From Candidatus Brocadiia bacterium (GTDB taxonomy: Bacteria > Planctomycetota > DG-23 > SLPQ01), in NCBI GenBank assembly GCA_007131925.1, contig SLPQ01000195.1, positions 1-37,815 on the forward strand: 37,815 nt of DNA, written 5' to 3'. Position 1 is the stretch's first letter. Each line of letters starts with the position of its first letter. The notes beneath the pieces are model-generated. The model had not been told where the DNA came from, searched no databases, and saw only the letters and a program-made list of their open reading frames with translations. This document shows positions 24,748 to 37,678 of this stretch, piece after piece. The translations under genes and the position numbers were made by a program.

Positions 24748-26934
24748 TCAGTAGGTAAGCGAGTAGAGTACGATATTGGTTGCCGCCCTGAATGCATCGT
24801 CGGTCACAAGACCCCTGATGCCGTAGGCGCTGAAGCCGTCAAGCGCGCAGCCGATGTCATAAGGCGAGTAGATCACCGCCCATCGGCCGTTGACCTTTGC
24901 GCCGTAGAGCGTGAAGACCTCCAGGTGCGGGCTTTGCTCCCGAACCGCAGCCGTATAGGTCACCCTGCGTACGTCGAATGCCATATCGTAGATCGGCGAG
25001 TCGGGCGGTATCTCCTCGAGGCGAGAGTCATCCAGTACGTCCCTGAGCATCGCACGGAAGGACCCGTCAAAAGCCTCCTGCCCCCCGGCGGCATCGGCGA
25101 AGAGGACTCCGCCCCGCTGGAGGTAGTCGGCAAGCGCGGTTGTCTCCGGCTCAGTGAGGACAAACCCGTGCAGGCCGGTCATGTAAAGGAAGGGGTAGTT
25201 GTGGAGATTCGGGTCTGTCAGAGGGATGTTTACCTGCTCGGCCGCGACCGGCAGGCCTGCCTCTTCATTGAGAAAGCGCAGCAGCTTTGGGCCCGAGCCG
25301 GGGTGAGGGTTCCACTGGCCTGAGTACATTGCCTGCGCAAAGGTGAATGCCCCCGGCGCGGCCGGTACTAGCGGCGTGATCTCCTGGGAGGCACGCTGCT
25401 CGAGCCGTGGCTGGAGCCGCTCCCTGCCCGTGGCGTACGCGGCGATATTTGCGCCGAATTCAAATTCTTCGCGCTCTTCGCTCGGGCGATTTCTCTCCCA
25501 GGCGCACGAGAGGTCCCTTGCGCTGTAGATGATCGGAGTGCGGCAGCCGGCATGGATGCCCTCGAGCTGGGGCGTGGCGTCGGTAAGCCTGAACCACGAC
25601 CTGTAGACACCGTGCGTGCTCTCAAGCCTTTCGAGGCTGCGGTCAGGAAATGCATCTCTCATGAAGAGACGAAATCCCTCGTCAAACTCCTCCCTCCCGC
25701 AGCATGCCTCGGCAAAGATAAAGCCTCCTCGCTCGATGTATGCATGCAGCCTGGCCGATTCCTCCGGTGAGAGCTCCGGCCATCTGTGGCCGGTGATATA
25801 AAGTATGGGTGCGGACATCAGCGTCTCAACCGAGTCGTCAAGGCTGACGACCTGCCAACTGAGGTTCTGGCCGAAAAGCTGTGATACGTAGGCGCTGAGG
25901 TTTTGCGCATCGTGCATGTCGGCGTTCCACTCGCCCGAATGCATAAGCTTGTTTATGAGAACCGGCGCATTTCCCTTCGCCAGGAAAAGAACAGCAAGGC
26001 AGGTGTTTGGTACACGATCACGCCCGGCCATCCAGGAGCCGTCTTCGTTTTGCGTGTCCACTATGAAGCGCGAGCCATCAAGGTACCAGTCATTGCCGCC
26101 TATCGTTCGCAGGCCGGAGAGCACGCCTACGCGTTCGAGGGCGTAAAGCCAGTAGTAAACCCACCCGTCCGGTCCTTGCGGGTGGGTTCTCACGGAGTAG
26201 TTTCTTTCAAGCCAGCCCATCGCCGCGGCAATGCGTGTGTCATGCTGGTACTCGCCGCATTCTTCGCCGTGTACATAAAGGCTGGAGCCCAGGATGTAAA
26301 GCGATGCGACGCCGGCGGCTGTCATCGAGCCGCGCGTAGGGTCGCCCGGTCTGTAGCCCCAGCCGCCGTCGGTATTCTGACTGGACTCGTAGTGCCTTTC
26401 GGCCTGTCTGAGAGCATCCTCATCGACGCTAAGCCCCACAGAGATCGCCGCCTGCAGTCCGAGCATGGCAAACTGGGTATTTGAGTTGTCGCCTACTACG
26501 CGCAGAGGGTCCCCACGCCGGTATGACCACATGCCGCGTGCGTTCTGGGCGCTCACGAGAAAGTCACGCATTCTTGCTATGTGGCGGATATGGCGTGCCG
26601 GGTTCACGGATGCGAGCGCCATGGCTATGCATGCGGCGTTGTATATCTCGGTGACCGGCTCCTCGAGAAAGTAGTTGATCCCTCTCTGTATTGCGGGGTC
26701 GTCCTCCGGTACTCCCGCTTCGCTGAGTGCCAGCACCGCCAGCGCAGCAGAGCCCTGGACGTGCTCTGGAGTCTGGTAAGGCCATGATCCGTCTTCGCGC
26801 TGCTCGGCCCTGAGAAACTCCACTGCCAGCTCGATCGCGCGGGAGACTTCCTCGTGCGTCACCTGGTCGGCGTGGGTGAGAGTCGCTCCAGCAAGCAGGG
26901 CAAGCCCCGCCAGCAGTCCGCCCTTTATCTTCAT
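24748..26934 (-). CDS. Exported protein: terpene-cyclase-like alpha/alpha toroid plus two DUF4159 domains
   Basis: A 728-residue protein with signal peptide (MKIKGGLLAGLALLAGATLTHA). Residues about 28-330 form repeats of the prenyltransferase/squalene-cyclase toroid type, with recurring DGSWPYQT, RGMWSYRRGD, DGGWGYRPGD and DGSWMAGRD. The cyclase DxDD acid is not evident, so this is probably a binding or structural toroid. Two DUF4159 domains follow in tandem (about 330-560 and 570-728). They share SGEWN/SGQWN, LYITG/LYMTG, YIERGGFIFAEA/YLQRGGVLFADA and REEFDEGFR/QEAFDGSFR. DUF4159 resembles class I glutamine-amidotransferase-like folds. The ATG overlaps the stop of the upstream DUF4175-like gene (TGATG), so the two are translationally coupled. 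TTG 26937 is a less likely start. Confidence 0.87.
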   Translation of the reverse strand: MKIKGGLLAGLALLAGATLTHADQVTHEEVSRAIELAVEFLRAEQREDGSWPYQTPEHVQGSAALAVLALSEAGVPEDDPAIQRGINYFLEEPVTEIYNAACIAMALASVNPARHIRHIARMRDFLVSAQNARGMWSYRRGDPLRVVGDNSNTQFAMLGLQAAISVGLSVDEDALRQAERHYESSQNTDGGWGYRPGDPTRGSMTAAGVASLYILGSSLYVHGEECGEYQHDTRIAAAMGWLERNYSVRTHPQGPDGWVYYWLYALERVGVLSGLRTIGGNDWYLDGSRFIVDTQNEDGSWMAGRDRVPNTCLAVLFLAKGNAPVLINKLMHSGEWNADMHDAQNLSAYVSQLFGQNLSWQVVSLDDSVETLMSAPILYITGHRWPELSPEESARLHAYIERGGFIFAEACCGREEFDEGFRLFMRDAFPDRSLERLESTHGVYRSWFRLTDATPQLEGIHAGCRTPIIYSARDLSCAWERNRPSEEREEFEFGANIAAYATGRERLQPRLEQRASQEITPLVPAAPGAFTFAQAMYSGQWNPHPGSGPKLLRFLNEEAGLPVAAEQVNIPLTDPNLHNYPFLYMTGLHGFVLTEPETTALADYLQRGGVLFADAAGGQEAFDGSFRAMLRDVLDDSRLEEIPPDSPIYDMAFDVRRVTYTAAVREQSPHLEVFTLYGAKVNGRWAVIYSPYDIGCALDGFSAYGIRGLVTDDAFRAATNIVLYSLTY

Positions 26935-29900
26935 CAATCCTCCGGGTGCCGACCATCAGCGAGGGCCTGGTAGTACATTTCTATCAGCCTCCTGTATTCC
27001 GGCGAGATATCTTCGTCGATGTATGCCATTGAAGGGTCTTCCGCGAGAAAATCATCCTCGACCTCGCCGCTGTCGGCCCTGCCCACGCTCTCGGCCGTGC
27101 GCACTCCGGCCATCAGCACGCCCGTGCCGTACCAGCCCTCCAGTTCAAGCCACTCTTCCAGGTCTGTCGGGTCGATGTCGCGCAGCTTATCCTCGTACTC
27201 GCGCACAAAAGTCCGCAGTGTGCTGACTGACCATCCGAGATATTCCAGCATTTCGCGGTTGGGGGTGCCTCTTTCAAGGTCACGTGCAACAGCTGAAACC
27301 AGCTGCCTGGTCCCCTCTATGCGCTCACCGATAGTCTGGCCGTCTCCGACCGGGTCGCTCGAAGGCAGCTCCACCTCGCCTCTCACACCGAAAGTACCGG
27401 CATCGCCCTGCCTGTCAACCAGACCGCCATGGCCGGCAAAGGCGTCTTCGTCCGCAGGCTCGGCTTCTGCAGCAGCGGCTTCGTGGGCGCTCTGGTCGTC
27501 ATCGCCTGCGCCTGGATCCGCCTCTGCCTGTGCGGGCGTGCTCTGATCATCGTGGTCCGGCCCCTCTGCGTCATGGGAATCATCATGGCCCGAAACCCCG
27601 TCTTCTCCGGTGAGCAGATCGGTCTCGGCCGGGGGAGGCCCGCCTTCGCCGGGCGCATCGAGCGGCACATCCGGCGCTTCATCAGTGGGAGGGGCATCCG
27701 ACAAGGGATGGCTCTCTGAGGGGGGTGAGTCCATGGACTCCGCGCGCGTCGCTTCGATATCAGCATCGCCCGGGGCATAGTCGTCGGATAGCTCTGAAGG
27801 CACTGCATCGGCCGCCTCGGCAGGCGATGCGCCCTCAGAAGGAGGCGGCGACAGCTCTTCTGCGGGCGTGGGGCTCGGCGCATCGGTTTGTGCGGCGGTG
27901 GCTTCGTGAGGCGCGAGCGGCTCAGCGCTCTCAGCCTGAGCAGTGGCGTCATAACTGTCTGTATGAGCCAGGTCAGGGCGAGCGAAAGTCTGGTCGTCAG
28001 CTGCAGCCACGTCAACTCCGGGCTGCTCGAAAGTACTCAGGCCCTCAGGTGCCCCGTCAGACGCGTCATCGCGGGCCGAGCCGTCCTGGTCGGTGCCCAC
28101 GCCGTCCCCCTCGCCGGCTTCGCCCGTCTGTGCGGCCTTATCCTGGCCGTCCCTGGGCGACTCCTCGAACGTAGGCTGAGCCTGGGCGACCGTGGCAGGC
28201 TCGTCACCGGCACCCTCTCTGTCCTGGGCGGCGCTCTCATCGGCTGCGCTCTCGGTGGGGCGCGCATCAGGAGTGCTCATGTGCCTTGCGATGGCTTCCC
28301 ATGTCTCATGGTCCTCCTCGAGCTGCTCCAGCAGACTGGAATAGGCCTGTGCGCGCTCAGCAGCCGAGCTCTCGGCAGACGGCGTGGCGCCGGAGTAAGG
28401 TGCATCGGCAACCTGCTTTTCCGGCTCACCTGCGGCCGGCCGGGGCGTTCCGGGCATGTCTTCGCCTTCGCGGACATCCCCTGTGGCTTCGTCTCTGCTC
28501 ATGCCCATTGGAGTCTGTCCGGCCGATGCCACCTTGAAAGAGTAGGTCTCCGTGCGCGAGGAAGCACCACGTGGAGTGCGATTGTCAATTGCCTCGAGGT
28601 GATAGCTAACCGTGTCTCCAGGACGTGCGCCGAGAAGCTCCGGCACCAGTGTCACCCGACGGGAGACCTCCATACGTTCAGGAGGCAGGATGAATGACTT
28701 CGTGCCGGGGTTGCCCTCGACCGCCTGAAAGTGAAAGACCATTCGGGATACACCGTAATCGTCACTGGCCCGAAACGCAAAATCAAGCCCCTTGCGCAGC
28801 TCGACAACCGCCCCATCCGGTGGACCCTCCAACGCCACAGCGGGCGGGTTGTCGGGTATGGCGACTATGTCGTAGCTCACCGGTGACCGCCCGCTCAGCC
28901 CGTGGCTGTCCACCAGATGCACCGTGTAGGAGCCCGAGCTCTCGACGGTAAATGCACCTTGCCCTGCGGCGCCGTCGACGGAGAGGTTTACGATCTTCTC
29001 GGGCAGTAAAGACAGGTGCGCCTCTTGCAGTTTCTTGTTGCTTCGGATGCCAATGGAGACCTTTGTACCCAGGGGTGCTTCGATATTGCCCTCGGTGATG
29101 ACGCGTGATTTAAGCATCGTGTACTCAGGGTAGTCGAGCCGGGCTTTGATAGACTCAAGGACGGGAGGCTCCATGGCTTCGATCTTGAAGATGCGGCTTT
29201 GCGCGTCGCCGGCTTTTACCATGTAAGATATGTCAGTTTCGAGGTGGTCTATCGAGCCTATCCATCCGTCTTCGCTATGAGACATCTGGCTTGATATCCA
29301 GAGTTCGTCATCTCTTGACCAGCGGATGTGGGCCGTTTCGGGCGTCCGACCGGCCAATTTGACGGCTATTTCGAGGTCGCTGCCGAGAACCACCGTGGCA
29401 TCTCCGGGTCTTACCGAGAGGATGCGCGTGCGCGTAGGGGGTGCAGCCATGCTCCACGGATTGGTGATCCTGACAAGGGAGACATACATGCTTTTGGAGG
29501 AAAGTGCGCTGTAAGCAAAAGCTACGACTATCAGCGCGACGGCAGCATAGCCGAGCTTGACAAAGCGGCTCGTGTCGAGCCCGGCGTCGATATCGACTCC
29601 ACCGAGGGCCTCAGCAGCGCGGTGCGCTACGAGCGGTCCGGCGCCGCGGGTGCGGCTGCGGCGCTTCATCTCGACAAATGTCGTAAGGCTTTCTCTAAAA
29701 TGTGGAAAGGCTATCTCAACCCGCCTTGCTACGTACAGTCGGGAGATAGAGCGAAAGAAAGGGACAAGAAGCGACGTGAAGCCAAAATACATCACCGTGG
29801 CGAGTATGGCTGTTAAAAGCGCCGTGCGCGCTGCAGCCGACAGGCTGAGTGCATGGTCAAGCACTACCGCCAGAAAGAGCACCCCGCTGGTCACAATCGC

Positions 29901-29990
29901 GACAAGCAGCCCGCCTTCCAGAAGCGCCATGAGCCTTACATGCCGCGCCCCGCGCCGCAGTGTCTTGATTATCAACTGCTCTGCACGCAT
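26934..29990 (-). CDS. DUF4175-like large membrane protein with a long acidic low-complexity region
   Basis: About 1018 residues from ATG 29990, which has GGAG ten bases upstream. A TTG at 30056 would add 22 residues from AT-rich sequence and is less likely. Three membrane segments occur near 20-44, 56-78 and 144-163. Beta-rich extracytoplasmic domains follow (around 190-500: ILSVRPGDATVVLGSDLEI, ARLDYPEYT, DNPPAVALEGPPDGA, FRASDDYGVSRMVFHF). The DYPEYT and DDYGVS motifs are typical of DUF4175-type proteins. Residues about 520-880 are a disordered Ala/Asp/Glu/Pro/Ser-rich stretch. A folded helical end (ERIEGTRQLVSAVARDLE ... YRRLIEMYYQALA) follows. Such proteins are usually found beside DUF4159 proteins, as here. 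The pair probably forms an envelope complex of unknown function. Confidence 0.82.
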   Translation of the reverse strand: MRAEQLIIKTLRRGARHVRLMALLEGGLLVAIVTSGVLFLAVVLDHALSLSAAARTALLTAILATVMYFGFTSLLVPFFRSISRLYVARRVEIAFPHFRESLTTFVEMKRRSRTRGAGPLVAHRAAEALGGVDIDAGLDTSRFVKLGYAAVALIVVAFAYSALSSKSMYVSLVRITNPWSMAAPPTRTRILSVRPGDATVVLGSDLEIAVKLAGRTPETAHIRWSRDDELWISSQMSHSEDGWIGSIDHLETDISYMVKAGDAQSRIFKIEAMEPPVLESIKARLDYPEYTMLKSRVITEGNIEAPLGTKVSIGIRSNKKLQEAHLSLLPEKIVNLSVDGAAGQGAFTVESSGSYTVHLVDSHGLSGRSPVSYDIVAIPDNPPAVALEGPPDGAVVELRKGLDFAFRASDDYGVSRMVFHFQAVEGNPGTKSFILPPERMEVSRRVTLVPELLGARPGDTVSYHLEAIDNRTPRGASSRTETYSFKVASAGQTPMGMSRDEATGDVREGEDMPGTPRPAAGEPEKQVADAPYSGATPSAESSAAERAQAYSSLLEQLEEDHETWEAIARHMSTPDARPTESAADESAAQDREGAGDEPATVAQAQPTFEESPRDGQDKAAQTGEAGEGDGVGTDQDGSARDDASDGAPEGLSTFEQPGVDVAAADDQTFARPDLAHTDSYDATAQAESAEPLAPHEATAAQTDAPSPTPAEELSPPPSEGASPAEAADAVPSELSDDYAPGDADIEATRAESMDSPPSESHPLSDAPPTDEAPDVPLDAPGEGGPPPAETDLLTGEDGVSGHDDSHDAEGPDHDDQSTPAQAEADPGAGDDDQSAHEAAAAEAEPADEDAFAGHGGLVDRQGDAGTFGVRGEVELPSSDPVGDGQTIGERIEGTRQLVSAVARDLERGTPNREMLEYLGWSVSTLRTFVREYEDKLRDIDPTDLEEWLELEGWYGTGVLMAGVRTAESVGRADSGEVEDDFLAEDPSMAYIDEDISPEYRRLIEMYYQALADGRHPED

Positions 29991-30078
29991 TTGCAGTCGT
30001 CTCCGGAAAAGCCTCTCTGCTATCTTATATGATAAAGATACCTTGTATTGATTCAAATAAAAGCGCTCTCCGGTGTGA

Positions 30079-30159: not shown

Positions 30160-30933
30160 ATGGCGGAGGATCTGTCACATATCCTCAAAGGTTGGGAGTA
30201 TGACCCCACCGATGAGCGGGCCAATGTGCGCACTGTAATCGGACGCGACGGTGCGCTGAAGGTTCAGCTGCGGGTGCGATTTGGCGTGCTGGAGCTTTAT
30301 GCAGATGGTTCGCCTGAGACCGGCGCGGAATGCGAACTGGACAGGCTGCGCAGGGAACTGGCGTCTCACAGGGCCAGGAAGGGCTCCGATGAGGGCTTTT
30401 CGATAAATGCAATGCGTACGGCGCTGATCTCCCAGGAGATACTCGACTATTACCAGAGGCGTGTCTGTTTTTTCATGCTGAGTGATTACCGCAGGGCGAT
30501 GCGCGACGCTGAGCACAACCTGGAGCTAACCGCGATGCTCAGAAAGTACAGTGGTGACCAGGAGGCGGCCTTCAAGCATGACAGATACCGCGCCTTCGTG
30601 ATCATGGATCGTGCCCGGGCGGCTGCGATGCTGGCCGTCGAAGAGGACGACTTTGACCGAGCCGTCGCTGAGATAGACGAGGCGATGACGGCCATAACGG
30701 ATTTCTACAAGGAGTATTCTCAGGAGGACCTTATAGAGGTATCCAAGGAGCTCGAAGTCCTTGGAAATCTCAAGGACGATCTTCGCAAGGACTACAACAT
30801 CCCGCTGTCGGACGCCGAGCGCATCGAGACCCTCAAAGAGGAGCAGGCACGGGCGATAGCACGCGAGGAATACGAAAAGGCAGCCAGGCTTCGCGACGAG
30901 ATTGCCGAGCTCCAGAGACGGCTGAGTCGCTGA
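30160..30933 (+). CDS. UVR-motif (UvrB/UvrC contact motif) helical protein
   Basis: A 257-residue soluble protein. The N-terminal 60 residues form a small domain rich in beta-strand (ALKVQLRVRFGVLELYADG). The middle is helical with two TPR-like pairs (ISQEILDYYQRRVCFFMLSDYRRAM; FDRAVAEIDEAMTAITDFY). The C-terminus is a UVR motif (LKEEQARAIAREEYEKAARLRDEI), used by UvrB and UvrC to pair and by other proteins such as McsA. ATG 30160 has GGAGGA ten bases upstream. It is not part of the repair nuclease itself. The Lnt-like gene starts 44 bases later on the same strand. Its function is unknown; a scaffold role is the simplest guess. Confidence 0.82.
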   Translation: MAEDLSHILKGWEYDPTDERANVRTVIGRDGALKVQLRVRFGVLELYADGSPETGAECELDRLRRELASHRARKGSDEGFSINAMRTALISQEILDYYQRRVCFFMLSDYRRAMRDAEHNLELTAMLRKYSGDQEAAFKHDRYRAFVIMDRARAAAMLAVEEDDFDRAVAEIDEAMTAITDFYKEYSQEDLIEVSKELEVLGNLKDDLRKDYNIPLSDAERIETLKEEQARAIAREEYEKAARLRDEIAELQRRLSR

Positions 30934-30976: not shown

Positions 30977-32632
30977 TTGGCGCGACCAGGCGTTTTCGGC
31001 ATGCCGGATGAATCCCCACAGGAGATCTCCAGGGAGGCGTTATACGAGCAGCGTGCTGAGCGTCTGACTGCCTCGAGAATAACAGTGCCGCCGGCAGCCC
31101 TTCGCCTGTCAGCGGCGGCCATAGGCGGCATATTTCTGCTTATCGCCCAGGCGGGTGCGCCGTGGGCCTGGATAGGTGCCGGCTTTGTGATGCTGTCGCT
31201 GGTGGGCGCTGCCGGACCTCTTGGCGCTCTCGCCGGCGCGATCGCAGCGTCAATAGCCTATTTCCGGGTGATCGAGTTTACGGACCCCTCTGGTGTATTC
31301 TGGGTATTGCTTCTCTTTCAGGCCGGGGGTGGCGCGCTTTTCGGCGCCCTGGCAAGCGAGATATCGCGCAAGCTGCCGCCGGTGGTCTTTGCGCCGCTTG
31401 CAGCATTGTTGCCGGCCGGGCTGGAGCACCTGGGCTCTTTCATCGGGCACGGAAACTTCCTGTCGACGGCCCTGACGCAGTATTCCTGGCCTACGGTGGT
31501 ACGGATCGCCAGGCTCGGCGGGATGTCCGGCGTGACATGGGTGATATTTTGCTTCGGTGGTGCTGCCGCCATAGCGGTGAGGTATGCCAAAGTGCCCGAA
31601 GTGCTCGTGAAAGCAACGCTGCCGGCAGTCGGCATTGTCGTCGCGGCGCTGATATATGGCGCGGCGAGCTCCAGTGCGGGCGGAGAGTCCCTCTTTGCAG
31701 TGGCGTACGCTCCGGAGATCCTGCTGAAGGAAACCGACGCGCTGGCTGCAAGGGGAGTATATGACAGCCCCGAGTGGCGGGGGCAGATATCGCGGCTGGC
31801 CGATGAGATGTTGCGAATATCTGAGAGGTCCCTTGCCGCAAGGGCCATCGACAGGCTCAGGGAGCCGGCAAAGCCTGACGTGGTGGTATGGCCCGAGGCT
31901 TCGATAATGCTCGATGCCTCCCTGAGGGAGGATTTTCTGGACCGTATTGGCGAGATAATGCGGCAAACATCGTGTGTTCAGGTATTCGGCTATTACGATG
32001 TAGAGGAGATGGCCAGCAGGGCTGTAATAACCGCCGGGCACCAGATAGGGCCTAACTACGCCCGGCGGGCTTATGTGCCCGAAAGGGACGATATCTTCAC
32101 TGCACAGCAGATAGCTCAGCCCGGCCTCGAGTGGCCCTGGGCTGAGTCCACACCAAAGGGCAGGATGGGCGCGCTTCTATCGCTCGATGCCAACAATTTT
32201 TCAAATTTCAGACGGCTTGCCGATGATGGAGCCGTCTTCGTCGGTGTGCCGGCCCTGGACGATACCATGACGCCGCAGGCTTCCCTGAGGCTCCTTGTTT
32301 ACAATGCGGCGCTCTCTGGCCTTGCAGTTGTGCGCGCTCCCAGAAACGGCACGCTCGCTGCGGTAAGCCCTGACGGCAAAATCATCGCCTCGGAAGAGAC
32401 GCTGGACCAGGTCAGTGTGCAGCTGCCGGTGAGCGTAGAGGTTGGCACCGGCCGCACAATTTTCCTGCTCGTGGGCAATGCCTTCGCCTGGATCAGTCTT
32501 TTGGGCGGACTGGCTGTCGGCTTCTATGCAAGCTCTCTGCAGGAGCCCCCCGAAGACCAGGCACGCCGCAGTGAGGCTGAAGTGACCGGACAGCTCACCT
32601 ACAGGACAAACAATGGCATGCGAGGGCTCTGA
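30977..32632 (+). CDS. Apolipoprotein N-acyltransferase-like membrane protein with a degenerate active site
   Basis: A 551-residue protein with the Lnt layout: about six N-terminal membrane segments (45-235), a nitrilase/CN-hydrolase-like periplasmic domain (about 245-500), and a final membrane segment (about 500-522). Lnt attaches the third acyl chain to lipoproteins with a Glu-Lys-Cys triad. Here Glu307 (VVVWPEAS) is kept. The Lys position in the Y-x-K-x-x-x-V-P motif is Arg363 (NYARRAYVP), and the Cys position in the G-x-x-x-C motif is Ser402 (GALLSLDANNF). The usual thioester chemistry is therefore unlikely. The start is TTG 30977 with AAAGGA six bases upstream; an ATG at 31001 is possible. 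It follows the UVR-motif gene closely and probably shares its promoter. Confidence 0.82.
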   Translation: MARPGVFGMPDESPQEISREALYEQRAERLTASRITVPPAALRLSAAAIGGIFLLIAQAGAPWAWIGAGFVMLSLVGAAGPLGALAGAIAASIAYFRVIEFTDPSGVFWVLLLFQAGGGALFGALASEISRKLPPVVFAPLAALLPAGLEHLGSFIGHGNFLSTALTQYSWPTVVRIARLGGMSGVTWVIFCFGGAAAIAVRYAKVPEVLVKATLPAVGIVVAALIYGAASSSAGGESLFAVAYAPEILLKETDALAARGVYDSPEWRGQISRLADEMLRISERSLAARAIDRLREPAKPDVVVWPEASIMLDASLREDFLDRIGEIMRQTSCVQVFGYYDVEEMASRAVITAGHQIGPNYARRAYVPERDDIFTAQQIAQPGLEWPWAESTPKGRMGALLSLDANNFSNFRRLADDGAVFVGVPALDDTMTPQASLRLLVYNAALSGLAVVRAPRNGTLAAVSPDGKIIASEETLDQVSVQLPVSVEVGTGRTIFLLVGNAFAWISLLGGLAVGFYASSLQEPPEDQARRSEAEVTGQLTYRTNNGMRGL

Positions 32633-32641
32633 GGTGGCCCG

Positions 32642-33229
32642 CTAAGCGTCGCTGAGACTCTCGATTACATCGGTCAGCTGCCTTATCGAAGTGATCTCAA
32701 AGTCCGCTGTCGTCTTGTACCGGCGCCCGGCGGCGTTGAGCAGTACCGTCGCAGCGCCGGCTGCACGGCCGGCCTCGATGTCAAACTCAACATCTCCGAC
32801 CACCAGGCATCGCCGGGTGCAGACACCCATCATCTCTGCGGCGGCGTGCACACCGTCGGGGTCCGGCTTCGGCAGGGCGTCCTCCCGCGTGATGATCGCG
32901 TCAAAGTGCAGCTTGTGCCTTGCGAGGACGATCCGGGTGCTTTGGCGGCTGTTTCTTGTCAATATGGCTGTCTTTATGCCACCGGCCTTGAGCAGGCGAA
33001 GTACTTCTGACACACCCTGGTTGAGCGTGGAAGCCTTTGCAGCGGCAATCTCATGCCTGCAGATAATAGAATTTGCGCGCCGGCGCGCGTGCGGAGTCAT
33101 GCGGGCCATCGACTCCAGGAGCGGCTCGCCCGGCGCGATGCCGACTTCGTCCCTGATCGCGGCGAAATCGAGAAGCGGGGCGGTGATGGTGCCGTCCATG
33201 TCGAAGATCACAGCAGCTACCTGATGCAT
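32642..33229 (-). CDS. HAD-superfamily phosphatase (phosphoglycolate-phosphatase-like)
   Basis: A 195-residue cytoplasmic hydrolase with the four HAD motifs: FDMDGTIT (Asp10, Asp12), AILTRNS, LPKPDPDG (Lys), and VGDVEFDIEAG. A short helical cap lies between motifs I and II. The overall pattern fits Gph/PGMB-type phosphatases that act on small phosphorylated metabolites. ATG 33229 has GGAG eight bases upstream, and the protein then begins close to motif I as usual. It is convergent with the Lnt-like gene, with nine bases between the stops. The substrate is not predictable. Confidence 0.9.
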   Translation of the reverse strand: MHQVAAVIFDMDGTITAPLLDFAAIRDEVGIAPGEPLLESMARMTPHARRRANSIICRHEIAAAKASTLNQGVSEVLRLLKAGGIKTAILTRNSRQSTRIVLARHKLHFDAIITREDALPKPDPDGVHAAAEMMGVCTRRCLVVGDVEFDIEAGRAAGAATVLLNAAGRRYKTTADFEITSIRQLTDVIESLSDA

Positions 33230-33410
33230 GTCCTTATCTCCTTTTGGCCGGCATTCTCCACATTTGCCGGGGCGTGGCAAGGGCCTGCGACAGGCAGGTG
33301 CAGCCTGTCAAAAGCTGGAAAAAACAGGCCGGTAAAGCCCAGGGTTTTTTTGCTGGCGGGCTCAGGGTCTTGCACAGGGGTGGCGCGCACGAGCGAGACT
33401 GCCCGCCATT

Positions 33411-33668: not shown

Positions 33669-33738
33669 TTCCCATGGGGTGCTTCCATTTGCCTGGGGGA
33701 TCTGCTCCCAGCATCGACAAAGGCGGAGGAGGAGTGGA

Positions 33739-34932
33739 ATGGATTCAACTCAAAGGACAAGGCCCAAGGGTGGCGGTTCACCTGTCGGGTTGGTGGTTTT
33801 TATCATCCTGACCGTTGTATTCGCCGGTCTGAGTTACTGGGGCTTTGCCAAGTACACAGAGGCCCAGCAGGAGGTCATCACGGCCACAGCCGAACAGGAG
33901 CGGGCCGAGAGAGATCGTGCTGCGGCCAGAAGTGAGCTTGCGAACTTCCAGGATGTTGCGGGAGCGGAGACACCTGATGCGCTTGCAGACGTGATATCGA
34001 CTACATTGGGAAAGAGTCGAGAGCTCGGTTTTGGCAGTGAGGCTCAGGACACCGCCACAGATGCCCTGCAGGTGGCTCTAAGGGCTATGGAGGGCCAGCG
34101 CGACGCCATCGAAAAGCTCTCCTCGGATATGGCTGATCTCTCCGCGCAGGTCAGGACGGTTACTCAGCAACGGGATGCCGCCGCTGCAACCTACGAGGAG
34201 GAGCTTGCCAACCTTCAGGACGATATCCGAAGGCTCAACACCCAGGTGGCCGACCTGACCGCCGACACAAGGGCGCAGCTTCAGAGGGAAATCGACCAGC
34301 GCACTGCTTTGCAGGAGGAGTACTTCACCGCACAGGATGACTGGCGCGACAGCGAGATGAGGTACATCCTTCACGTCGCTGAGCTCCAGGAGCGCGTGAG
34401 AAGGCTCTCCGGCGAAGGTGCAATATTCGAGGAGGCTGACGGGATAGTCGCCAGCATCGACCATATGCACAATAAGGTCACCATCGACATTGGAGGCAGG
34501 GCCGGCGTAAGGCCGGGCATGAGATTTGTCATCTTTACAAGAGACGCACGTGGCCATGTCGTGCAGAAAGGCGTAGTCGAGGTCCTCGACACCACGCCTG
34601 ATGTATCCATGGCCGCAATAGTAGCCGTAGCCCCTGACCAGGCGATCGGGAGGGGCGATTATGTTTACAACCTGGCAGGACCTGATCCGCGTCTCTTTGT
34701 TTTTGCAGGAGAGCCGCAGAACTACACGATATCGGAGTGGACAAGCTTCATAAGGGCCAATGGGGGCGAGGTCGTTGGTGAGGTACAGAGAGGCGACAAG
34801 GTTGCGGATTATCTCATCATGGGCAGGTTTGATGAGGACGACCCGGTCGTCGTCACACAGGTGAGAGCGGCACGTGATTTTGGCCTGACCATCCTGACCG
34901 AAGAGCGGCTCAAGGAGGCCATGGGCCTGTAG
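33739..34932 (+). CDS. Membrane-anchored coiled-coil protein with a BRCT-like C-terminal domain
   Basis: A 397-residue protein. After a short basic cytoplasmic tail there is one membrane segment (about 16-36, VGLVVFIILTVVFAG). A long coiled coil (about 40-235) follows. A small beta domain (about 240-310) contains NKVTIDIGGRAGVRPGMRFVIF, a pattern seen in envelope proteins such as the C-terminus of FlgT. The last 80 residues (RLFVFAGEPQNY, FIRANGGEVVGEVQRGDKVADYLIMG, then FGLTILTEERLKEAM) have the strand-helix order of BRCT-like domains. Charge distribution puts most of the protein outside the cytoplasm. ATG 33739 has GGAGGAGG upstream. A terminator follows at 34961. Function unknown. Confidence 0.8.
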   Translation: MDSTQRTRPKGGGSPVGLVVFIILTVVFAGLSYWGFAKYTEAQQEVITATAEQERAERDRAAARSELANFQDVAGAETPDALADVISTTLGKSRELGFGSEAQDTATDALQVALRAMEGQRDAIEKLSSDMADLSAQVRTVTQQRDAAAATYEEELANLQDDIRRLNTQVADLTADTRAQLQREIDQRTALQEEYFTAQDDWRDSEMRYILHVAELQERVRRLSGEGAIFEEADGIVASIDHMHNKVTIDIGGRAGVRPGMRFVIFTRDARGHVVQKGVVEVLDTTPDVSMAAIVAVAPDQAIGRGDYVYNLAGPDPRLFVFAGEPQNYTISEWTSFIRANGGEVVGEVQRGDKVADYLIMGRFDEDDPVVVTQVRAARDFGLTILTEERLKEAMGL

Positions 34933-35016: not shown

Positions 35017-35388
35017 CTACTGCATGAACTCTTCGGGACCGGGCTCGCCGTGTTCGGGCTCCCCGGTGGCGGGCTCTTCAAGCTTCTCCCGCAGGATACG
35101 TACCTGGGCTTCGATCTTTGTGATTCGCGCATCGAGCTTGTCAAACTGGGGCTTGGTCACGACGGTTATTCGCTCGAGCGCATTGCGAACGCCCTTGTCG
35201 ATTCTTTTACCCAGATCCTGAGAATCCTTCTTGCCTCGCTCGACCAGCTCGTCGATAACCTTCCTGCCCTGCTCGGCAGTCAGTTCGCCCCGCTCGACAA
35301 GGTGATCGACCGCTTCTCGCACCTTTTCCACTGAGAAATCGACTGCGCCGAGGCCTGCCAGCAGGCTCTTCTTAATGCCGTCTTTCAT
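35017..35388 (-). CDS. Phasin-like (polyhydroxyalkanoate granule-associated type) small helical protein
   Basis: A 123-residue protein with the organisation of PhaI/PhaF-like phasins and their relatives. It starts MKDGIKKSLLAGLGAVDFSVEKVREAVDHLVERG, then has ELTAEQGRKVIDELVERGKKDSQD, then a coiled coil (TKPQFDKLDARITKIEAQVRILREKL) and an acidic Glu/Pro/Gly tail. Such proteins coat storage granules or act as small regulators. No PHA synthase gene is in the window, so a granule role is unproven and the fold may serve another purpose. ATG 35388 has GGAGG six bases upstream. It is the last gene of a three-gene minus-strand run. Confidence 0.75.
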   Translation of the reverse strand: MKDGIKKSLLAGLGAVDFSVEKVREAVDHLVERGELTAEQGRKVIDELVERGKKDSQDLGKRIDKGVRNALERITVVTKPQFDKLDARITKIEAQVRILREKLEEPATGEPEHGEPGPEEFMQ

Positions 35389-35402: not shown

Positions 35403-35825
35403 TCATGGGCGAGGACCCTGCAAGCCGCCGAAGGCCGCCCGGGCAAAACCTCCGAACAGCTCCTCCAGCCTGCGACGCTCCTTGTCGCTTGCGGCTTGCG
35501 ATACTTCATGTGATTGTATCTTTTCTACCAGTCCCGGACAAACGAAAAGATACGCCGGATCCTCCACGCCATGGGCGCGTGCAAGCTGGATCATCTGCCT
35601 GTGGCATACGCGCTCGATGCCATGTTCATGGCAGAGGTCATAGAAAAGCAGGAGAGGCTGCCTGGACTTTTTCCTGTGATTTACCAGCCACCAGGTACCG
35701 AGGCCGCCCGCGACAAGCACAAGAACACTGACCGCGAAGATGGCAAATTCCGAGGATGACCCGGTCTGGTAGTTTCTGATACTCTCGCCAAGGTCTCTGG
35801 CTGCTATCTGGGCCAAAGGTATCAT
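35403..35825 (-). CDS. Small single-pass membrane protein of unknown function
   Basis: A 140-residue protein. About 30 N-terminal residues precede one membrane segment (about 27-48, AIFAVSVLVLVAGGLGTWWLV). A basic stop-transfer stretch (NHRKKSRQ) and a cytoplasmic helical domain (LLLFYDLCHEHGIERVCHRQMIQLARAHG ... YLFVCPGLVEKI) follow. Cys and His residues recur in the cytoplasmic part, but no metal-binding motif is clear. I do not recognise the family. The ATG overlaps the stop of the HEAT-repeat gene (ATGA) and has GGAG eight bases upstream, so the two proteins are made together and probably work together. The phasin-like gene starts 14 bases after its stop. Confidence 0.75.
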   Translation of the reverse strand: MIPLAQIAARDLGESIRNYQTGSSSEFAIFAVSVLVLVAGGLGTWWLVNHRKKSRQPLLLFYDLCHEHGIERVCHRQMIQLARAHGVEDPAYLFVCPGLVEKIQSHEVSQAASDKERRRLEELFGGFARAAFGGLQGPRP

Positions 35826-37678
35826 TGCGACTGCTCCCATGTCATGAGCGTCATAAGGGCTGCGTTTCGGACTTGCTCGTGGGCGTCATTTCTGGACATC
35901 GAGCGCACGAGGTCGGCCTCCTTTTCAATGCCGATTTGCCTGAGGCCCCACAGGCCCGAAAGGCGCATCTCGTACCGTGGACTCTTGAGCATATCCGCAA
36001 GCGCATCCCGACCGCGCTCATCACCCAGTGTCCATGATGCCTTTGCCGCATTTGCGCGCACTCGGTTGTCAGGGTGTTTCATCAGGGGGTCCAGCAGCCG
36101 CAGTATCTGCCTGTGGCCCGTCTCTTCGAGGGCTTCGACGGCGTTGGCCAGCACGCGCCGGTCGCGGTCATTGAGTATGGAAAAAAGAGCCTTCATGGCA
36201 TCGTAGGCGCCGGCCTTGCCGAGCTGCCTCACCGCCGAGGAACGCACGCGACTATCCGGGTGCTTTGCCAGGGCTGTCAGCTCGGTGGCGACGTCGGCCT
36301 GGCAGCCGGCGTACTCGATCACCCTTATGCCCCTGAGAACAGTCTCGGCATCTGTGTCAGTAAGTGCGCTCTTGACTTCTCTGGCGAGAATGCCCCTCGA
36401 GCGAAACTGGCCTACCGCGGCCTCTTTTTCACTGCGTGCCAGCGATTCGAATGAGTTCATGAAGTTGCGGAACAGTACCGACTCCGACAGCAGCTCTGAG
36501 CCGTCAGGGCCGGCCGGCGATCTTTCGGGGACAAGCTCGTCAATGTCCGGCTCCCAGACAGGCGCGTCGATCTCTTCGCAGCTTCGTTCAATTTTCACGA
36601 GCCCGGCGTCGATCCTCTCGGGGCTGACCTGCTTTGCCCGGGCAGTCATTACAAAGCGTGCTGCCGAAGCCAGCACGGGGCGATCTTGGCCGGAGAGTCG
36701 CTCAAATATGGCCTCCTGTTCGGTGTGCCTGGTGCCCGTGCACGCCAGAAACCTGACCGCACGTACTGCGAGGACATCAGGCAGCTCGGAGGTTTTCTGG
36801 GTGCCGGGACGCAGCCACGGCACAAAGTCGATCCCCGAAAGGGCGCGGCGCACAGCAGCGCTGGAAAGCAGGCTGTTCTGTGAGAGCAGCGCATTTATGA
36901 AGGCCGTGTCGAAGCGTGTTTCGATCACCTCATGGGCGAAAGCGGCGGTCTTTGAGTTTTTCATCATCGTAATCAGAAACCTGATGGCTCGCGGATATGA
37001 GACCGCCTCCAGTATGTCCAGTATTATCTTGCGGCGCCGATCCATGGGATTGGCCAGTATTTCCATCAGCACCTCATCGCCCCGCCTGTCAAGGGCCATC
37101 AGCGCGGCTATCACCTCAGGACGCTCGTGAGTCGAGTAAAATCGCAGCGCCGTCAGCAGCGCGTCGAGGAGCCCGAAACGGCGCGCCTCCAAGGTGGCGC
37201 GAGAGATGTCGGCCTTGCCTGCCTCGACAGCAAGCATATTGACATGGTAGTTGTGCGCCAGCGAAAGCAGGCCGTCCTGTGCGCTCTTTCTTATCTGTTC
37301 GCTGCTGTCCTGGATAAGCTCCGCCAGGAGGTGCGCCACCCGCGTGTCCTGCATGCGCACGAGAAACTCGCAGACGTTGGCCCGTACGCGAACATCCTTT
37401 TCTTTGACGTTCTGCCGCAGTACAGGAAGAAAGGCCTCTGCCGACTCGACAGCGCGCTCCTGGAGGTCTGCGTCCACCTGGTCGAAAACGCGCAGTACCG
37501 CCTCGAGCGAGCGCCGCTGGGGGCGCGATAACGCCGCCTCGATTGCGAGGATGCGTTCAGCGCCGGTGCAGTTGAGCACCGCAAAGCCCAGAACGTCAGG
37601 CGCGTTTGCGCGGCGGCTTTTCACCAGTGTCTTGAAAGTCCGCTCGAGCGGCCCGTTGGTGAAGCCCTCTTTGCTCAC
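35822..37678 (-). CDS. Large HEAT-repeat protein
   Basis: A 618-residue helical-repeat protein. HEAT units are clear in both halves: VRVRANVCEFLVRMQDTRVAHLL near the start and, near the end, DSRVRSSAVRQLGKAGAYDAM, DRRVLANAVEALEETGHRQIL, DNRVRANAAKASWTLGDERGRD and PRYEMRLSGLWGLRQIGIEKE. A central, less regular part (about 370-430) carries an acidic loop. There is no signal peptide, membrane segment or catalytic motif, so it is probably a protein-binding scaffold. The GTG start at 37678 has only a weak upstream GGGT; no better in-frame start is obvious. It overlaps the small membrane-protein gene downstream, suggesting it is recruited to the membrane. Confidence 0.85.
   Translation of the reverse strand: MSKEGFTNGPLERTFKTLVKSRRANAPDVLGFAVLNCTGAERILAIEAALSRPQRRSLEAVLRVFDQVDADLQERAVESAEAFLPVLRQNVKEKDVRVRANVCEFLVRMQDTRVAHLLAELIQDSSEQIRKSAQDGLLSLAHNYHVNMLAVEAGKADISRATLEARRFGLLDALLTALRFYSTHERPEVIAALMALDRRGDEVLMEILANPMDRRRKIILDILEAVSYPRAIRFLITMMKNSKTAAFAHEVIETRFDTAFINALLSQNSLLSSAAVRRALSGIDFVPWLRPGTQKTSELPDVLAVRAVRFLACTGTRHTEQEAIFERLSGQDRPVLASAARFVMTARAKQVSPERIDAGLVKIERSCEEIDAPVWEPDIDELVPERSPAGPDGSELLSESVLFRNFMNSFESLARSEKEAAVGQFRSRGILAREVKSALTDTDAETVLRGIRVIEYAGCQADVATELTALAKHPDSRVRSSAVRQLGKAGAYDAMKALFSILNDRDRRVLANAVEALEETGHRQILRLLDPLMKHPDNRVRANAAKASWTLGDERGRDALADMLKSPRYEMRLSGLWGLRQIGIEKEADLVRSMSRNDAHEQVRNAALMTLMTWEQSQ

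Follow-up and report, generated by a model that had tools for sequence, protein, structure and literature searches.

The window analysed here, the whole stretch of DNA with a length of 37,815 nucleotides, carries at 30977–32632 on the plus strand an open reading frame of 551 codons. It encodes a membrane protein of 551 amino acids that resembles apolipoprotein N-acyltransferase (Lnt) and is called pseudo-Lnt in the following. The start codon is TTG and is preceded by AAAGGA. This start is supported by an ortholog on contig JAGHCE010000180.1 of the Planctomycetota MAG AUK274 (G002), a genome of the same family as the source genome (G000). The ortholog, an intact frame of 556 codons for a protein 48% identical to pseudo-Lnt, starts with TTG as well, and the residues R-P-G-V-F-G right behind the start are common to both. 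Among the fetched loci, this head motif (window 30977–31000, plus strand) and a C-terminal tail motif, TY(K/R)TxxGM (window 32590–32629, plus strand), were found only in the two pseudo-Lnts. The protein consists of an Lnt-like membrane domain (residues about 39–230), a nitrilase-like domain (about 240–490) and a C-terminal transmembrane segment (about 495–513), and both its N- and C-terminal tails are extended.

The gene that ends 43 bp before pseudo-Lnt (30160–30933, plus strand) encodes a protein with a C-terminal UVR motif. Its frame is readable from 30079, and the homolog in another genome of the phylum (G003) begins at the position of the ATG at 30160. A large membrane protein with an acidic low-complexity part is encoded divergently upstream (26934–30056, minus strand), and a HAD hydrolase gene, 52% identical to its counterpart in G002, lies convergently downstream (32642–33280, minus strand). 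All three neighbours, the large divergent one, the UVR-motif gene and the HAD hydrolase gene, surround pseudo-Lnt in the same order in G002. The earlier note had considered co-transcription with the UVR-motif gene probable, and the close and conserved adjacency fits one transcript. No Lnt-like gene was detected beside the UVR-protein homologs of other Planctomycetota (46% identity in G003); the pairing thus appears to be specific to the family of G000 and G002, and a functional link, suggested by adjacency in these two genomes, is hypothetical. Further downstream, the window holds a small phasin-like frame (35017–35388, minus strand) near the gene of a large HEAT-repeat protein (35822–37678, minus strand).

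Homology to Lnt and the catalytic pocket

Single profiles recognise pseudo-Lnt weakly. The match to TIGR00546 (E 1.1e-9) reaches 38.0 bits and that of the G002 ortholog 39.5 bits, both below the equivalog cut-off of 132.9 bits; the match to Pfam LNT_N (E 1.3e-4) scores 22.6 bits against a gathering score of 27.1, and the ortholog scores 19.1 against CN_hydrolase, for which the gathering score is 23.2. A search of PDB sequences with the protein gave no match, and a PDB search with profile A1 gave best matches with E about 1 or worse. When a profile of the two pseudo-Lnts was aligned by hhalign with a profile of nine canonical Lnts including that of E. coli, a match of 98.9% probability (E 2.5e-17) was obtained over 444 columns, covering the membrane and the nitrilase domains. 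We conclude from the strength of this profile-profile match that the homology to Lnt is real despite the weak single-profile scores. The hydropathy profile is also that of E. coli Lnt: a membrane bundle followed by a soluble stretch of about 267 residues and one more transmembrane segment, corresponding to the N-terminal bundle, periplasmic domain of about 260 amino acids and final transmembrane segment of Lnt. The Lnt-like membrane layout and nitrilase motifs described in the earlier note are therefore upheld.

Lnt follows a ping-pong reaction with E267 (E. coli numbering) as the base, K335 in the oxyanion hole and C387 as the nucleophile (PMC6971011). E343 has been termed the 'fourth catalytic residue' that holds K335, and the mutants E267A, K335A, E343A, C387A and E389A are inactive (PMC5500890). 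In three alignments, E307, R363 and S402 of pseudo-Lnt fall on E267, K335 and C387, respectively. The base is kept (E307, codon GAG, 31895–31897), the catalytic lysine is replaced by arginine (R363, CGG, 32063–32065) and the nucleophilic cysteine by serine (S402, TCG, 32180–32182; all codons on the plus strand), so that pseudo-Lnt has Glu-Arg-Ser in place of the Glu-Lys-Cys triad of Lnt. This confirms the motif reading of the earlier note, and no conserved Lys and Cys came to lie at the site on alignment with E. coli Lnt. Sequencing error as the source of Arg and Ser is ruled out by the same residues in the independent G002 MAG. Two replacements go beyond those noted before, D371 for E343, the partner of K335 (GAC, 32087–32089, plus strand), and D404 for E389 (GAT, 32186–32188, plus strand). 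The pocket of both orthologs thus reads E-R-D-S-D, compared to E-K-E-C-E in canonical Lnt. Y388, which like E343 and E389 is essential in Lnt, has become L403 and W237 has become Val, neither change being conservative. The exchanges of K for R, C for S and twice E for D each introduce the chemically nearest residue, for which a post hoc count under a BLOSUM62 replacement model gives a probability of about 2e-4. Of 36 residues invariant in canonical Lnt, 25 are altered in at least one of the two pseudo-Lnt orthologs.

The active site was mapped by alignment alone; AlphaFold models of pseudo-Lnt had pLDDT values of 36 (two sequences) and 33 (three sequences) and were unusable. A migrated nucleophile and a substitute lysine were considered and rejected. 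The only Cys conserved between the orthologs, C333, lies about 70 residues upstream of S402, the only conserved Lys, K132, is in the membrane domain, and no Cys/Lys pair is evident. With E. coli Lnt (PDB 5N6H/5XHQ), pseudo-Lnt has in common the N-terminal membrane domain, the periplasmic nitrilase-like domain, the C-terminal transmembrane segment, the catalytic Glu and residues V339, P340, E136, G145, G168, D413, R442, G447 and G456. It differs by an identity of only 18%, by its longer tails, by replacement of R432, N445, W132 and W148 and by the absence of the W415-F416 loop.

Canonical Lnt and other Lnt-like proteins of the phylum

The source genome also encodes a canonical Lnt with intact Glu, Lys and Cys, the gene of which is split over the ends of two contigs. 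Its first half runs up to the final base of contig C101 (...WPET...YFDKVHLVP), and the second half starts at the end of contig C196 (EYVPMRDSF...SICFED). The unbroken version is found on contig C176 of G002, in the order lgt, panC, folK, divergent lnt, the gene of a coiled-coil protein, mreB, mreC, mreD, a PBP2-like gene and rodA. The contig ends in the source genome match this order: C101 carries Lgt and folK, and C196 the genes from the coiled-coil protein to rodA. Apart from Lgt and LspA, the gene names in this cluster were assigned by eye from the translations. Canonical Lnt is also present in both other genomes of the family (G001 and G002). Since Lgt (C101), LspA (C71) and canonical Lnt are all present in the source genome, pseudo-Lnt is not the sole Lnt; the second Lnt with an intact triad that the earlier note had proposed to search for does exist. 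The canonical gene heads an elongasome cluster with lgt beside it (L090 on C176 of G002; L088/L089 in the source genome). A coiled-coil membrane protein encoded in the window at 33679–34932 (plus strand) is 25% identical (E 5e-5) to the coiled-coil neighbour of canonical Lnt, a similarity to which coiled-coil bias may contribute.

Pseudo-Lnt was found in only two genomes, G000 and G002; the sample covered four genomes of the class and 392 of the phylum. A search of genome contigs for further relatives returned one match, the same G002 contig, and the scanned viral contigs contained one ordinary Lnt only. In G001, of the same family, neither pseudo-Lnt nor clear orthologs of its neighbour genes were found, and because the neighbours are missing as well the absence may be an assembly gap. 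Among the other aligned Lnt or Lnt-like frames of the phylum that extend over the site, nearly all have Glu, Lys and Cys. The exceptions are L095, with K-Q-G, and L100, a soluble CN-hydrolase of G002 with Ser. L095 (1291–2961, minus strand, contig C193 of G023) is an Lnt paralog about 8 kb from a canonical Lnt, with all triad residues replaced (Lys, Gln and Gly); it is a dead paralog unrelated to pseudo-Lnt. L100 (777–4826, contig C155 of G002) belongs to tandem soluble CN-hydrolase genes that also occur on contig C191 of the source genome (L004, 829–2217 and 2193–3584). In both genomes the Cys is missing from the first copy, which has Gly in G000 and Ser in G002, and is present in the copies that follow; the family has here a further dead copy next to live nitrilases.

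In the tree, the long branch of the two pseudo-Lnts lies next to a second Lnt-like clade of Planctomycetota with intact triads (L056, L092 and L094; support 92/85). This nearest clade has similar YAK/YAR and PxG-RxG motifs and, unlike pseudo-Lnt, keeps Glu, Lys and Cys. The pair does not group with the family's own Lnt; a recent duplication of that Lnt is not rejected by the AU test (p 0.14) and may also be the origin of pseudo-Lnt.

Selection and possible function

Between G000 and G002, the codon positions 1, 2 and 3 of pseudo-Lnt are 59, 66 and 35% identical, the third being near-random. The NG86 estimates are dN 0.52 and dS 2.4, the latter saturated, with dN/dS of about 0.2, a pattern that indicates purifying selection. 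The overall identity of 48% is near that of the canonical Lnt halves of the same genomes (51% and 61%). Within pseudo-Lnt, identity is higher in the membrane domain (59%) than in the nitrilase domain (42%; p 4e-4), whereas canonical Lnt compared between these genomes has 53% and 55% (difference from pseudo-Lnt z 2.9). Relative constraint has shifted away from the catalytic part and towards the membrane part, in line with a binding or scaffold role.

Selection of this kind makes it probable that the gene serves a non-standard, perhaps non-catalytic, function. We therefore consider it probable that pseudo-Lnt is a diverged second Lnt homolog that has lost standard N-acyltransferase catalysis and is kept as a membrane protein binding lipids or lipoproteins, an interpretation that draws on two orthologs only. 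Since neither a Cys for the thioester nor a Lys as oxyanion donor would be available, the protein should be unable to carry the ping-pong reaction through to an amine and presumably does not N-acylate apolipoproteins. Its pocket would stay charged, possibly with an R363-D371 pair in place of K335-E343. Pseudo-Lnt might then assist, titrate or regulate either canonical Lnt or some of the lipoproteins or phospholipids. The tails, which both orthologs conserve and which should be cytoplasmic, could contact a cytosolic partner; the UVR-motif protein would be one speculative candidate. Two points speak against a loss of catalysis. The four nearest-analogue exchanges look like tuning and not like relaxed constraint, and E. 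coli Lnt C387S reportedly still forms the acyl-enzyme although Lnt activity is undetectable (PMC3850990), which leaves partial chemistry possible.

Both points also count in favour of an active variant, which we regard as possible but unlikely. Here S402 would be the nucleophile and E307 the base, and R363 would occupy the oxyanion site, held there by D371; an ester acyl-enzyme formed from phospholipid would pass the acyl group to water or another acceptor, making the protein a phospholipase or an O- or N-acyltransferase of different specificity. The kept base and the identity of the exchanged pocket residues in both orthologs are in agreement with such a protein, and a change of substrate has a parallel in AatD, an Lnt homolog that acylates the N-terminal glycine of CexE in the Aat system (PMC7943197). 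AatD would also resemble pseudo-Lnt as a paralog with a changed job. However, AatD retains E, K, E and C and needs all four (PMC7943197), where pseudo-Lnt has E-R-D-S, and all canonical Lnts sampled likewise keep Cys and Lys; no Aat genes were recognised in the window. The lower conservation of the nitrilase domain and the loss of R432, N445, W415/F416 and Y388 also argue against activity. It is more doubtful still that the E-R-D-S-D pocket has become a working serine acyltransferase or lipase on a Cys-based Lnt fold, with Arg for Lys, that acts on phospholipid or special lipoproteins and is coupled to the UVR-motif protein. As to the earlier note's choice between a pseudoenzyme and a different acyl chemistry, an Lnt homologue with replaced residues is supported, and of the two alternatives the pseudoenzyme is the likelier.

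A relaxed, dispensable gene that is heading for loss and has no selected function could account for the many altered Lnt invariants and for the failure to find pseudo-Lnt in G001 or in the rest of the phylum sample. Yet both frames are intact, dN/dS is low, conservation is near that of canonical Lnt, and tails and neighbours are conserved, while the absence from G001 may reflect the assembly. In particular, a dying pseudogene would not be expected to keep E-R-D-S-D and its gene neighbours in the ortholog at such a dN/dS, and we think this explanation improbable. Least of all do we expect pseudo-Lnt to be the working Lnt of the organism with unusual residues: homology and topology would be suitable, but the source genome and both other genomes of the family encode a canonical Glu/Lys/Cys Lnt, and C387S is inactive in E. 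coli.

For the preferred reading, a second Lnt homolog without standard catalysis, there are precedents by analogy. Mycobacterium bovis BCG_2279c is, like pseudo-Lnt, a second Lnt beside a working one with the nucleophilic Cys replaced by Ser (C387S; S402 in pseudo-Lnt), and it cannot replace the main Lnt (PMC3850990). In BCG_2279c a single triad residue is lost, whereas in pseudo-Lnt the Lys is replaced too, and the two are likened by description only. Lnt2 of Streptomyces scabies is reported to be unable to replace Lnt1 and yet to influence N-acylation (PMC3850990); unlike pseudo-Lnt, it is not reported to be without triad residues.

Some bacteria retain a second Lnt; the copies of Mycobacterium and Streptomyces are not N-acyltransferases in their own right but may matter all the same. 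Pseudo-Lnt, in which Lys and Cys are both exchanged and the Glu and the charge pattern are kept, would be a clean case to separate binding from catalysis in lipoprotein maturation. Should the serine prove to work after all, it would show how a nitrilase fold can change its nucleophile.
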